Shown here: positions 43,234-46,954 of the stretch, in pieces | Position numbering within the stretch: position 1 is the stretch's first letter | How the letters are laid out: every line of letters begins with the position of its first letter | NCBI RefSeq assembly: GCF_004358165.1 | Contig: NZ_SMTG01000002.1 | Location: 1,240,001-1,304,000, forward strand | DNA from: Luteimonas terrae | GTDB taxonomy: Bacteria; Pseudomonadota; Gammaproteobacteria; Xanthomonadales; Xanthomonadaceae | Length of the DNA: 64,000 nt | Direction of reading: 5' to 3' | Program-made: the position numbers and the translations under genes | The notes under the pieces: model-generated | The model's input: the letters and a program-made list of their open reading frames with translations, nothing else | The model's database searches: none | What the model was told of the DNA's origin: nothing

Positions 43234-44553
43234 ATGCGCCGTGTCCGCCCGTCCGCCCTCCTCGTCTGCACCGCCGCGCTGTTCGCGCCGCTGACCGTGC
43301 TGGCGCAGACCACCGCCGTGCATTGCGAGCGCCTGTTCGACGCGCGCAGCGGCCAGGTCCGCGGCGAGCACACGATCCTGGTGGAGAACGGCCTGATCCG
43401 CGAGGTGATTCCCGGCCGCGCCAAGCTGCAGGACGGCGTCGAATCGATCGTGCTCGGGGACCGCACCTGTTCGCCCGGCTGGACCGATCTGCACGTGCAT
43501 CTGGGCTCGCAATCGAGCCCGGCCAGCTACTCGGAAGGCTTCCGCCTCGACGCGGTGGACTACGCCTTCCGCGCGGTCGGCTATGCGGACAAGACGCTGT
43601 CGGCCGGCTTCACCACCGTGCGCGATCTCGGCGGCGAGGTCAGTCCGCACCTGCGCGATGCGATCAACCAGGGGCTGGTCGACGGCCCGCGCATCTTCGC
43701 GGCCGGCAAGTCCATCGCCACCACCGGCGGCCATGCCGACCCAAGCAACGGCTACAACTCGATGCTCTCGCACCTGATGGGCCCGCCGGGACCGACCGAG
43801 GGCGTCATCAATTCGATCGACGATGCCCGCCAGGCCGTGCGCCAGCGTTACAAGGAAGGCAGCGACGTCATCAAGATCACCGCGACCGGCGGCGTGCTGA
43901 GCTATGCGCGCAGCGGGGATGCGCCGCAATTCACCGTCGACGAGGTGCAGGCGATCGTCGACACCGCCAAGGACTACGGCTATCGCGTGGCCGCGCATGC
44001 GCACGGCACCGAAGGCATGAAGCGTGCGGTGCTCGCCGGCGTGACCAGCATCGAGCACGGCACGCACATGGACGACGAGGTCATGCGGCTGATGAAGCAA
44101 CGCGGCACCTGGTACGTGCCGACGATCTACGCCGGCCGCTTCGTCGCCGACAAGGCGAAGGAGCCGGGCTACTTCCCCGAGGTCGTGCGCCCGAAGGCGG
44201 CGACGATCGGCGCGCAGATCCAGGACACCGCCGCGCGTGCCTACCGCGCCGGCGTGCCGATCGCCTTCGGCACCGACCAGGGCGTCGGCCCGCACGGCGA
44301 CAACGCGCGCGAGTTCGTCTACATGGTCGAGGCCGGCATCCCGGCGGCGTATGCGTTGCAGTCGGCGACGCTGCATGCGGCCACCGTGCTCGGCGTCGAC
44401 GACCAGGGCGTGATCGAAGCCGGCAAGCGTGCCGACATCATCGCGATGCCCGGCGATCCGGTCGCCGACATCAACGCGGTGATGGGCGTGGACTTCGTGA
44501 TGAAGGGCGGTCGCGTGCATCGCGCGCCGGCCGAGGCTGCAGCGCTCGATTGA
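43234..44553 (+). CDS. secreted metal-dependent amidohydrolase
   Basis: This 439-residue amidohydrolase-superfamily enzyme has a signal peptide ending in VLAQ (about residue 25). Metal ligands are visible as HVH at residues 87-89, Lys214 in [10 protein letters not shown] (the bridging carbamylated lysine position), HAHG near 253 and GTDQG near 349. The sequence resembles the imidazolonepropionase-like/Xaa-Pro dipeptidase (prolidase) group that is common as secreted enzymes in Xanthomonadaceae. Proline- or arginine-containing dipeptides are plausible substrates, but I cannot choose. It is monocistronic, followed by a palindrome and a REP pair. Confidence 0.87.
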
Positions 44554-44555
44554 GG

Positions 44556-44571
44556 CCGCGGTCCCGGGACC
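44556..44571. repeat. 16-base perfect palindrome after the amidohydrolase gene
   Basis: GCGGTCCCGGGACCGC starts two bases after the amidohydrolase stop. It could fold into an eight-base-pair stem with no real loop or act as a protein-binding site. No T run follows. A role in termination is possible but not shown. Confidence 0.4.
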
Positions 44572-44597
44572 GCTTCCGCGGGCGGAAACAGGCAGTC

Positions 44598-44674
44598 TTT
44601 GGGAGCGCCCTTTCGCGATTCGCGTAAGCGCGCAACTGATGCCTCGTCGAATCGCGCGCGAGCGCGCTCCCACA
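44598..44674. repeat. REP-like inverted pair, second locus
   Basis: An arm at 44598-44618 (TTTGGGAGCGCCCTTTCGCGA) and an inverted partner at 44652-44674 share the GGGAGCGC/GCGCTCCC core with the pair at 35176-35259, but the first arm is more diverged. The element fills the gap between the amidohydrolase and the DUF998-like gene. Confidence 0.72.
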
Positions 44675-44692
44675 CGGAATCTCTGTCTTCGC

Positions 44693-45271
44693 TCAGCCTT
44701 GCGAGCGGGTCTTTTCGATCCCCGGCACGCGCACCGCCAGCAGCAGCGTCCACGCCCACCACGCCACCAGCACCACGCGCGGCCCGACGATCGGCCCGTG
44801 CAGCAGCGGCGACAGCAGGCACGCCGCGCAGATCAGCAGCGCCGGCCATCGCACCGCAGGCAGTGCGACACCGGACAGCAGCGCACCGGCCGCGAACGCG
44901 ATCGACCAGACCATCCACGCAGTCGCATGCAGGCGACTGACGCCGGCATCAAGTGCCCCGGGATCCAGCGGCCATACCCCTTGCGCCGCAAACGCCAGCG
45001 CGGCCAGCAGAAACAGACGCAGGGCGATGCCCGCGACCAATCCGATCGTCGGCGCGGTCGCGCGCAGGCGCAGCGCGGCGAAAGCGAGCAACACGCCCGG
45101 TACGATCCATGCCAGCAGATTGAATACCCACGCCCGCTGCATGCCGGCGGCGCCCGACCATGCCAGTGGCGCCGCCATCGGCAAGGTGTTCGCGACGGTG
45201 AAGGCGAGCAATGCCACCAGCGTGCAGGCGTGCGCGACCGCAACGATGGGCCATAAGCGCACGCGGCTCAT
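44693..45271 (-). CDS. six-span membrane protein, DUF998-like
   Basis: The 192-residue product is almost entirely hydrophobic with about six spans. The region [19 protein letters not shown] followed by [15 protein letters not shown] matches my recollection of DUF998 proteins, in which a DP-x-H pattern in the third loop is conserved. Function is unknown. The start overlaps the stop of the XRE regulator gene by four bases (ATGA), so it is the third gene of a tightly coupled unit with 45268-45480 and 45477-45923. Confidence 0.75.
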
Positions 45272-45480
45272 GCTGCCCACCGGAACACGTCTTCGACCCC
45301 GACCCCGAACGTCCGCGCGATCCGGAACGCCAGTTCCAGCGACGGCGCATAGCGCCCCGCCTCCAGCGCGATGATCGTCTGCCGGGTCACGCTGCAGGCA
45401 TCGGCCAGCGCCTGCTGGGTCATCTCGCCGTGGTCGAAGCGCAGGCGCCGGATCTCGTTGGCGATGGGCGTGCCGGTCAT
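45268..45480 (-). CDS. small XRE-family transcriptional regulator
   Basis: A 70-residue single-domain DNA-binding protein. The helix-turn-helix is plain: [20 protein letters not shown] at about residues 20-39, then [20 protein letters not shown] and VGVEDVFRW. Proteins of this size (YozG type) are usually encoded beside a small membrane protein and regulate their own operon. Here the gene overlaps its upstream and downstream neighbours by four bases each. The operon promoter carries a perfect inverted repeat at 45980-45997 suited to a dimer, so autorepression is the likely mode. Confidence 0.93.
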
Positions 45481-45923
45481 CGGCGCGCCCGGGCATAGGC
45501 GAACGCCGTTGCTGTATGGCCCGCGAAGTTCGCCACGATCAGGCCGAGCACCAGGGTGCCCGGAAGCCTCAGATGTTCGGCCAAGAGCGGTTCGCGTGCG
45601 ACGGGTACGACAAGCGCCGCCGCCAGGGCGAGTGCCCAGACACTCGCCGTCGAGCGGAATAAGCGATCGCCGTACGCGAGGAATGCCGCGTCTCGCTCGT
45701 CCTCCAGCACACCCCGGCGACGCTGCGCGTCGCTCAGGGCCCGGCGCCGGAACCAGTGCGAGAGGAACAGCACGCCTGCAACGCTCATCAGCGGAAACGG
45801 GCTCGGCGCGATCACCGCCACCACGAGCGTCCACATCGCCAGGCACGCGGCACCGATTGCGGCACTGCGCGCATATCGCTCACCGAACGCCGGCGTCTCG
45901 ATGCAGGTGTTCTCGACCGCCAT
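45477..45923 (-). CDS. small membrane protein (DUF2178-like), first gene of the XRE cassette
   Basis: The 148-residue protein has about four membrane spans grouped in two pairs (roughly 18-40, 43-58, 90-108, 120-142). Between them is a charged helix with [19 protein letters not shown], a pattern reminiscent of DUF2178 proteins, which carry a DER-D loop and usually precede a small XRE regulator. AAAGGAG lies seven bases before the ATG, one of the best ribosome sites in the window. Function is unknown; the genetic link to the regulator is the main clue. Confidence 0.8.
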
Positions 45924-45957
45924 GAACGTCTCCTTTGCCGGACATCAGGTCAACGAT

Positions 45958-45985
45958 TGTTTACATCCCGATCAGTCGATGTCAA
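45958..45985 (-). promoter_or_regulatory. predicted promoter of the XRE cassette
   Basis: On the minus strand TTGACA (45980-45985) is separated by 16 bases from TAAACA (45958-45963). The -35 is a perfect match; the -10 is fair. The element lies 35-62 bases before the start of the first cassette gene. The -35 forms half of the inverted repeat at 45980-45997, so a bound regulator would block RNA polymerase. Confidence 0.6.
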
Positions 45986-45997
45986 ACATTTTTGACA
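45980..45997. promoter_or_regulatory. putative XRE operator (perfect inverted repeat)
   Basis: TGTCAAACATTTTTGACA is a perfect 7-4-7 inverted repeat (TGTCAAA/TTTGACA). It is strikingly AT-rich compared with its surroundings and overlaps the -35 box of the cassette promoter. Size and symmetry suit a dimer of the small XRE protein encoded in the cassette. It also sits 72 bases upstream of the divergent thioredoxin gene and could influence it. Confidence 0.65.
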
Positions 45998-46069
45998 TGG
46001 TTGTATCCTGCCGGCGCCGTCGCCATCTGCTTGGATCGCGCACGGCGCTTCTCCATCCAAGGACTCCCC

Positions 46070-46954
46070 ATGCTTCTCGACGGCTCCGCCCCCGCCACCG
46101 ATGCTCCCCGCCACATCTTCGATGTGACCACCGCGACCTTCGAGGCCGAGGTGCTGCAGGCGTCGCTCGAGCGCCCGGTGCTGGTCGATTTCTGGGCCGA
46201 ATGGTGCGGGCCGTGCAAGTCGCTGGGGCCGGTGCTGGAGAAGCTGGCCGCCGAGTACAACGGCGCCTTCGTGCTGGCCAAGGTCGATGTCGACAAGGAA
46301 CAGCAGATCGCGGCCGCGTTCCAGATCCGCTCGGTGCCGACGGTGTTCCTGCTGATCGGTGGTCAGCCGGTCGACGGTTTCCCGGGCGCGTTGCCGGAAG
46401 GCGAGGTACGCGAGTTCCTCAAGCGTCACGGCATCGAACCGGCCGAGGGCGGCGCCATCGAGGATGGCGAGCCGGCGCCACTGGATCCGACCGCCGAAGT
46501 CGCGCGTCTGCGCGATGCGGTCGCCGCCGAGCCCGACAAGGGCGAGCTGCGTCTCGATCTCGCACTCGCCCTGCTGCAGACCGGCGCCGCGAAGGAGGCC
46601 GAGGGCCTGCTCGACGGCCTGCCCGCCAACCTCGCGACCGACGATCGCGCGATCAAGGCGCGCGCCCGCCTCGACTTCGCCACCCTGCTGGCCGATGCGC
46701 CGCCGGCCGACGCGCTGCAGGCCGCGATCGCCGCCGATCCGGCGAATCTCACCGCGCGCCATCAGCTCGGCGTGCGCCACATCGTCGGCGGCGACGCCGA
46801 GGCCGGCCTCGAGCAGTTCATCGAGATGCTCGCGCGCGACCGCGATTTCCAGGACGGCCTGCCACGCAAGGCACTGATCGATGCGTTCCGCGTCGTCGAC
46901 GACGCCGCGCTGGTCGGCCGCTACCGCCGGAAGATGGCCTCGCTGCTGTTCTGA
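46070..46954 (+). CDS. cnoX: CnoX/YbbN-type thioredoxin with TPR-like C-terminal region
   Basis: The protein joins a thioredoxin domain (about 14-125) to a helical, TPR-like region (about 155-294). This is the layout of CnoX (YbbN), a chaperedoxin that shields proteins from oxidation and passes them to GroEL. The active site is WCGPCK with Cys46 and Cys49. E. coli CnoX has SxxC there, so this version should keep thiol-disulfide activity. The TPR-like part contains LRLDLALALLQTGAAKEAEG and ARHQLGVRHIVGGDAEAGLE. The start ATG 46070 follows an AAGGA site. It is divergent from the XRE cassette. Confidence 0.88.
   Translation: MLLDGSAPATDAPRHIFDVTTATFEAEVLQASLERPVLVDFWAEWCGPCKSLGPVLEKLAAEYNGAFVLAKVDVDKEQQIAAAFQIRSVPTVFLLIGGQPVDGFPGALPEGEVREFLKRHGIEPAEGGAIEDGEPAPLDPTAEVARLRDAVAAEPDKGELRLDLALALLQTGAAKEAEGLLDGLPANLATDDRAIKARARLDFATLLADAPPADALQAAIAADPANLTARHQLGVRHIVGGDAEAGLEQFIEMLARDRDFQDGLPRKALIDAFRVVDDAALVGRYRRKMASLLF

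Follow-up and report, generated by a model that had tools for sequence, protein, structure and literature searches.

Within a 64,000-nt stretch of the Luteimonas terrae genome (hereafter the window), the gene of a small XRE-type regulator lies between two membrane-protein genes, and a perfect inverted repeat covers the promoter in front of them. The locus raises the question of whether the regulator acts on this repeat and, if so, what part the neighboring membrane proteins take in its control.

Genes, proteins and promoter region of the cassette

The features of the locus are compiled in Table 1. The first membrane-protein gene (M1), the regulator gene (XRE) and the second membrane-protein gene (M2) are joined by four-base ATGA overlaps at both the M1/XRE and the XRE/M2 junctions, which bears out the original prediction that the three genes form one operon. 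The interval given for that unit, 45268-45997, covers M1, XRE and the dyad but leaves M2 outside. The gene divergent to M1 encodes a protein with Pfam Thioredoxin and TPR_20 matches, and we take it to be a cnoX/ybbN-like gene, called cnoX below. CnoX is a chaperedoxin of the oxidative-stress response.

Table 1. Positions of the genes, predicted operator sites, promoter elements and protein motif in the window
Feature	Position	Strand	Remarks
O1, perfect dyad TGTCAAA-N4-TTTGACA (CATT centre)	45980-45997		predicted operator; includes the -35 box
-35 box TTGACA	45980-45985	-	right half-site of O1; from promoter scan
O2, TGTAAACAATCGTTGACC	45948-45965		predicted operator; exactly 32 bp from O1; overlaps the -10 region
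-10 region	45956-45963	-	AACAAT at 45961-45956 with 18-nt spacer (scan), or TAAACA at 45963-45958 with 16-nt spacer (family pattern TAAnnT)
O3, TGTCCGGCAAAGGAGACG	45927-45944		predicted operator, degenerate in the window; 21 bp from O2, 53 bp from O1; overlaps the Shine-Dalgarno sequence
Shine-Dalgarno sequence AAAGGAG of M1	45930-45936	-	
M1	45477-45923	-	148-aa membrane protein, DUF2178-like; first gene of the operon
DE-x4-hydrophobic-x3-[AGS] box of M1	45669-45701	-	residues 75-85; follows a basic loop and starts the third helix
XRE	45268-45480	-	70-aa Cro/CI-type HTH regulator, CylR2/PbsX-like
M2	44693-45271	-	third gene, accessory; DUF998-like membrane protein of 192 aa
cnoX/ybbN-like thioredoxin-TPR gene	46070-46954	+	divergent, shares the intergenic region with the cassette; possible second target

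The regulator is a stand-alone protein that belongs to the XRE family, as its Pfam match to HTH_3 scores 47.2 bits against a cut-off of 23 (E 2.2e-12). Compared with solved structures, its alignment profile matches a PbsX-family regulator (9k3w, 4e-22) and CylR2 (1utx, 7e-15). The nearest named relatives (96-97%) belong to an unclassified Lysobacteraceae bacterium and three Luteimonas strains.

The family names proposed earlier for the two membrane proteins, DUF2178-like and DUF998-like, hold through their relatives and not through the window's own proteins, since M1 has no Pfam match to DUF2178 (PF09946) and M2 none to DUF998 (PF06197) at E<=1. DUF2178 is detected at E<=0.1 in 16 of the 34 members of the M1 alignment, the window's own protein being among the 34, with a best value of 1.8e-5. 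One M1 relative scores 18.5, below the DUF2178 gathering cut-off of 22.8, and the membership of M1 is therefore expressed as "-like" only. DUF998 is detected at the same threshold in 23 of the 29 members of the M2 alignment, again counting the window's protein, and its cut-off of 30 is passed by two of the four M2 relatives scanned (36.8 and 44.9). M2 is tied to the DUF998 family through these relatives, although the window protein itself misses the gathering cut-off. AlphaFold2 models of both proteins have high mean pLDDT values, 89.8 for M1 (four long helices and one short) and 91.8 for M2 (helices 7-28, 36-40, 47-72, 78-99, 110-136 and 138-181). In a Foldseek search against the PDB, neither model has a match at E<=0.001, and therefore the folds give no functional lead.

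In the promoter region, the perfect repeat TGTCAAA-CATT-TTTGACA, with the -35 box as one of its halves, is located at 45980-45997 as originally described. Searched as a pattern with up to two mismatches, it yields one match in the window against 0.03 expected. The only promoter-like site in a scan of both strands of 44400-46300 is the TTGACA/AACAAT pair (0.1 in shuffles). Symmetry alone was rejected as a sign of significance, because perfect 7-4-7 repeats occur 16 times in the window and 15.0 times in Markov shuffles; with at most two G/C in the arms, however, the count is one against 0.0. What distinguishes O1 is its position, AT-richness and conservation rather than its symmetry. O3 is degenerate in the window and the -10 is weak. 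Adjoining O1 on the cnoX side, at 46001-46009, lies a TTGTATCCT element.

Conservation of gene order and predicted operator sites

XRE matches at E<=1e-5 were found in 166 of the 247 family genomes searched. As orthologues we took 79 of the 86 best-ranking matches (L003-L081; E down to 1.1e-16, identity 54-100%), leaving out seven lower-ranking ones; 11 weaker matches (L082-L092) are of a paralogous type and were separated from the orthologues by their neighbors. Among the 79 family loci, M1 lies directly upstream of XRE in 69, a DUF998 gene (M2) downstream in 47, and cnoX nearby in 43. Both membrane-protein genes flank XRE in just 39 loci, so that the cassette is not the essentially three-component unit that had been proposed, and the DUF998 gene is accessory. 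In 18 loci outside Lysobacterales whose open reading frames were judged by eye, a DUF998 gene was recognized in none.

The conservation check suggested with the original prediction was carried out upstream of the homologous cassettes of the family loci, and the palindrome is conserved there. An 8/8 TGTNA-N8-TNACA dyad with a second site at 20-60 bp precedes 65 of the 79 loci, whereas the reversed-sequence controls contain such a pair in 0/90. The best gap between the dyads is 32 bp in 46 loci, 21 bp in nine, 33 and 34 bp in one each, and another distance in eight. A pair within the scanned range is absent from 14 of the 79, one of which (L037) has a 32-bp pair just beyond that range. The repeat may therefore be regarded as a predicted operator, as claimed, although it is not a single site but one of two or three in tandem.

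When 43 dereplicated loci from the 46 with a 32-bp gap are aligned on O1, the motifs ATGTNA-N7-TTGACAT and ATGTAA-N8-TTACAT appear at offsets 0 and 32, respectively. The third dyad at +53 (O3), which was unused in the selection, overlaps the Shine-Dalgarno sequence. Among all offsets its motif score is the third highest (5.4/8, with a mean of 2.0 and an sd of 1.0), and a scan of the same 43 loci for symmetry alone places it fourth. O2 encloses the family -10 pattern, TAAnnT, at a spacer length of 16 nt.

The loci with altered gene content indicate which gene the sites accompany. Eight loci possess M2 but lack an M1 gene ahead of XRE, and six of these (L008, L022, L039, L049, L051 and L054) have a clear O1/O2-type array before XRE; of the other two, L042 has a perfect O2 with a degenerate O1, and L021 a dyad at another spacing. 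The array is also retained where a divergent cnoX is lacking (10 of the 48 anchored loci). The comparison establishes gene order, sites, spacing and conservation at the level of sequence, and it links the sites to XRE rather than to M1 or cnoX, from which we strongly infer that XRE binds them. Since M1 is absent upstream of XRE in 10 of the 79 loci, it seems that some loci either do without it or have it at another place.

Other arrangements of the genes were also seen. In L051 and L146 the order is XRE-M1-M2 instead of M1-XRE-M2, and the operator array still precedes XRE. By eye, an alpha/beta-hydrolase-like gene follows XRE in L065, L066, L067, L071 and L170, and a similar one in L012; DUF998 was undetected in L065, L066, L067 and L071. 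These hydrolase-like third genes are possibly exchangeable outputs.

The genome that contains the window carries, on another contig, a second cassette (L002:1456-2316; contig C7 near 600396), composed of a 191-aa membrane protein, a 66-aa XRE and a peptidase-like gene. The dyads TGTAAAGCCTGCTTGACA and TGTCAAGCTCACTTGACA, 45 bp apart, lie ahead of the 191-aa membrane protein. The evidence for this paralogous site is its location together with the second dyad and not the number of matches, because a genome-wide pattern search with up to two mismatches gave two matches per strand for the real pattern and equally two per strand for the backwards control. In the 11 paralogous-type loci from other genomes, the best dyad pairs are likewise spaced at 43-45 bp. 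Cross-talk between the paralogous cassette and the window XRE is possible. With up to one mismatch, ATGTNA-N8-TNACAT occurs at four places in the genome, two of which are O1 and O2, against two for the reversed control; no wider regulon is claimed.

Beyond the order, named XRE relatives are found in Caulobacter, Hyphomonadaceae, Phycisphaerae, Acidobacteriaceae, Gemmatimonadetes, Krumholzibacteriia, Sumerlaeota and Aggregatilineales. XRE was detected at E<=1e-16 in 28 of 398 sampled genomes of the window's phylum, including the window genome, two of the same family and two of the same order. At the same threshold it was detected in 15/199, 12/199 and 10/150 genomes of the phyla of the Acidobacteriaceae, Phycisphaerales and Gemmatimonadetes loci, each count including the seed genome. 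From these, 63 new sampled loci were joined with 15 named-relative loci, leaving out L165, L167 and L168 (same genomes) and the named relatives from Lysobacterales; three loci were too short, which left 75. The best-pair score is at least 14/16 in 35 of the 75 loci against 2/375 shuffles, and 13 of the 75 are without any pair.

In the 73 loci that remain without two same-order ones, a pair of dyads scoring at least 6/8 at exactly 21 bp occurs in 33 (0.1 expected) and a pair at 42 bp in nine (0.2 expected), every other gap being found in at most four. Dropping six near-duplicates leaves the 21-bp pair in 29/67 and the 42-bp pair in 9/67. By group, the 21-bp pair is present in 15/31 loci of Pseudomonadota, 9/13 of Acidobacteriota, 3/12 of Planctomycetota, 2/10 of Gemmatimonadota and 4/7 of the others; it is lacking in 40 of the 73 loci, with the highest proportions in the Planctomycetota (9/12) and Gemmatimonadota (8/10) samples. 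Outside Lysobacterales, XRE is 66-79% identical to that of the window, partly through selection because similarity to the window protein was the criterion for collecting the relatives, whereas M1 is 12-23% identical. As a family, the DUF2178-like/XRE pair is widespread and largely unstudied. Its regularly spaced palindromes, two or three in number, through which it probably represses its own genes, occur in other phyla as well.

Two observations were made in single loci of these groups. In an Aggregatilineales MAG (L160) and an alphaproteobacterial MAG (L171), a quinone-oxidoreductase-like gene follows M1-XRE, as judged by eye. In a Sumerlaeota MAG, two 8/8 dyads 21 bp apart (L161:1474-1512) are located about 1 kb upstream of XRE, beyond the range scanned elsewhere.

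Candidate regulatory circuit and competing explanations

We favor, with somewhat better than even confidence, the explanation that the cassette is an autorepressed membrane-protein/XRE sensory switch in which M1 may be the sensor that relieves repression. XRE dimers would occupy dyads that follow TGTNA-N8-TNACA and stand two or three in a row; in the window's family, O1 lies over the -35, O2 (+32 bp) over the -10 and O3 (+53 bp) over the ribosome site. With 10.5 bp per turn of DNA, gaps of 21, 32, 42 and 53 bp approximate whole turns, as do, less closely, the 43-45 bp of the paralogues, and the dimers would therefore lie on about one face of the DNA. Bound to O1-O3, XRE would exclude RNA polymerase and keep the operon low. 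The assignment of XRE as the binder of the dyads is strongly suggested by the comparison of loci, as is repression as its effect, which fits sites placed on both promoter elements and on the Shine-Dalgarno sequence. The further steps are hypothetical: on an envelope signal, a DE-x4-I-x3-A box on the cytosolic side of M1 might hold XRE at the membrane and so relieve repression, and M2 might be a lineage-specific output or immunity protein that is produced once the switch opens. No result points to a particular signal, including the membrane stress or envelope lipids originally suggested.

The candidate docking motif derives from the membrane proteins themselves. D75 and E76 are the only invariant residues of the M1 alignment, an invariance that is partly built in because the M1 set was chosen with a D[EQ][RHL][DE] filter. 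The DE-x4-hydrophobic-x3-[AGS] box is present in 34/34 M1 proteins and in 10/11 paralogue-side membrane proteins, the latter not chosen by motif, compared with 1-2% of shuffles. These 11 comprise ten of the 11 paralogous loci and the window genome's copy; the exception is a 68-residue fragment (L092). The paralogue-side box reads DELQQRIELEA in the window genome and DELQRRIELEG in L086, whose protein lies outside the scan range. That M1 and its paralogue-side counterpart are homologous was considered and is unsupported (hhalign probability 0.4%), the alignment being confined to 14 columns around the DE box. By the positive-inside rule, basic loops of membrane proteins tend to face the cytosol. 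As the M1 box follows a basic loop at a helix start, it is probably on the cytosolic side.

The opposite sign of control is unlikely in our view. XRE would then be a positive autoregulator of the LytTR kind, inhibited by M1 at rest and, once freed, activating the operon from O1. Operon pairs that couple a regulator to a membrane inhibitor, and in which conserved repeats precede the promoter, have been described (PMC6193735), and O1 is the farthest upstream of the sites and conserved enough to anchor the alignment. In S. mutans, however, the repeats are reported 4-11 bp upstream of the -35 (PMC6193735), whereas the sites of the present family extend over the -35 and -10 elements and the Shine-Dalgarno sequence, where a bound protein would block polymerase.

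Another explanation is that an ordinary small XRE gene regulates itself and that the membrane genes are unrelated passengers. Autoregulation through palindromes is reported to be general among XRE genes, with 223 motif clusters and binding in 9 of 10 tested interactions (PMC12565409), and the third gene of the cassette does vary. The upstream gene argues against it: a DER-motif membrane gene lies directly upstream of XRE in 69/79 family loci and in 63/73 loci outside the order, and the membrane protein that adjoins the paralogous XRE carries the same DE box too. We regard this explanation, too, as unlikely.

The divergent cnoX gene might instead be the main target, with O1 controlling both directions. 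Besides the presence of cnoX next to the cassette in 43/79 loci, a NACAA/TCCAA element matching TTGTATCCT accompanies O1 at a distance of 4-16 nt in 31 of the 38 loci with a divergent cnoX and in 0/10 without; it is probably part of the cnoX promoter, perhaps its -10. Nevertheless, the array persists in the 10 cnoX-less loci of the 48 anchored ones, 21-bp pairs occur in other phyla, and O2 and O3 are located on the cassette side, so that cnoX as the main target seems quite improbable.

A toxin-antitoxin pair, with M1 as membrane toxin and XRE as antitoxin and autorepressor, is the kind of system in which small XRE antitoxins autoregulate through palindromes, and XRE has weak matches to NCBIfam antitoxin models and some PADLOC HTH models. 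This is very unlikely here, as the NCBIfam matches reach at most about half of the cut-offs, neither M1 nor M2 has a PADLOC match at E<=0.01, no toxin of a known family stands beside an antitoxin above its cut-off as in type II systems, and XRE persists with M2 in 8/79 loci without M1 upstream. Also, a 2009 survey put Xre/membrane pairs aside, type II systems with a membrane component being then unknown (PMC2701414).

Returning to the autorepressed switch, we tentatively extend it, with considerably less confidence, to a phosphate-free sensory system of several phyla. Its dyads would be set about whole turns apart (21, 32, 42-45 and 53 bp), dissimilar membrane proteins would gate a CylR2-type XRE repressor through a single short docking box on the cytosolic side, DE-x4-I-x3-A, and DUF998 and other third genes would be exchangeable outputs.

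Relation to described systems

In the literature search, no paper contained "DUF2178", alone or with XRE, and the combination of HTH, membrane protein and DUF998 was likewise not found; no title or abstract on a DUF2178-like/XRE pair was retrieved. Related elements are nevertheless known. The 2009 survey noticed three conserved Xre-repressor/membrane-protein gene pairs, apparently those listed in its table as PA2784-, YoaS- and PA4076-like, which by their description resemble the present pairing; operators, mechanism and a link to DUF2178 are absent from the accessible part of its text (PMC2701414). A genome-wide catalogue describes palindromes upstream of XRE genes, some of them tested by EMSA; the terms "tandem", "membrane", "Xanthomon", "TGTAA" and "TTACA" are absent from its main text, which mentions a TTAC segment for two motifs, and its supplementary motif tables may list the motif (PMC12565409). 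What makes a pair of an Xre repressor and a membrane protein directly testable is the conserved predicted operator at fixed spacing together with the candidate docking motif. Should M1 indeed gate XRE, a sensory family would emerge from a large class of so far anonymous membrane proteins.

Three described systems come close to the cassette, and we file it under none of them because a defining feature of each is not found in it. SdpR of Bacillus subtilis is an ArsR-type regulator, whereas the Pfam matches of the window at E<=1 include neither ArsR nor SdpI. The likeness would lie in the design, as SdpR is described as an autorepressor that the polytopic membrane protein SdpI sequesters at the membrane on a signal (PMC1626106). 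For the LytTR Regulatory Systems (HdrRM, BrsRM), the description is of one operon encoding both a LytTR-family regulator and a membrane inhibitor, with repeats at the promoter and a wide phyletic spread (PMC6193735), and they share with the cassette the operon pair, the conserved promoter repeats and the spread. By that description, they differ in having direct repeats upstream of the -35 and positive feedback, whereas here an HTH_3 regulator is accompanied by dyads over the -35 and -10. In CylR1/CylR2 of Enterococcus faecalis, a 66-aa XRE regulator stands beside a predicted three-span membrane protein that is needed for induction, and it has been suggested that the pair forms a two-component system lacking a phosphorelay (PMC3709268). 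The window XRE is of the same sequence type (the 1utx match above) and also lies next to a membrane protein, although CylR2 controls a divergent lantibiotic toxin operon and the divergent gene here is cnoX-like. Compared by description only, CylR1 has three predicted spans, whereas M1 is modelled with four long helices.
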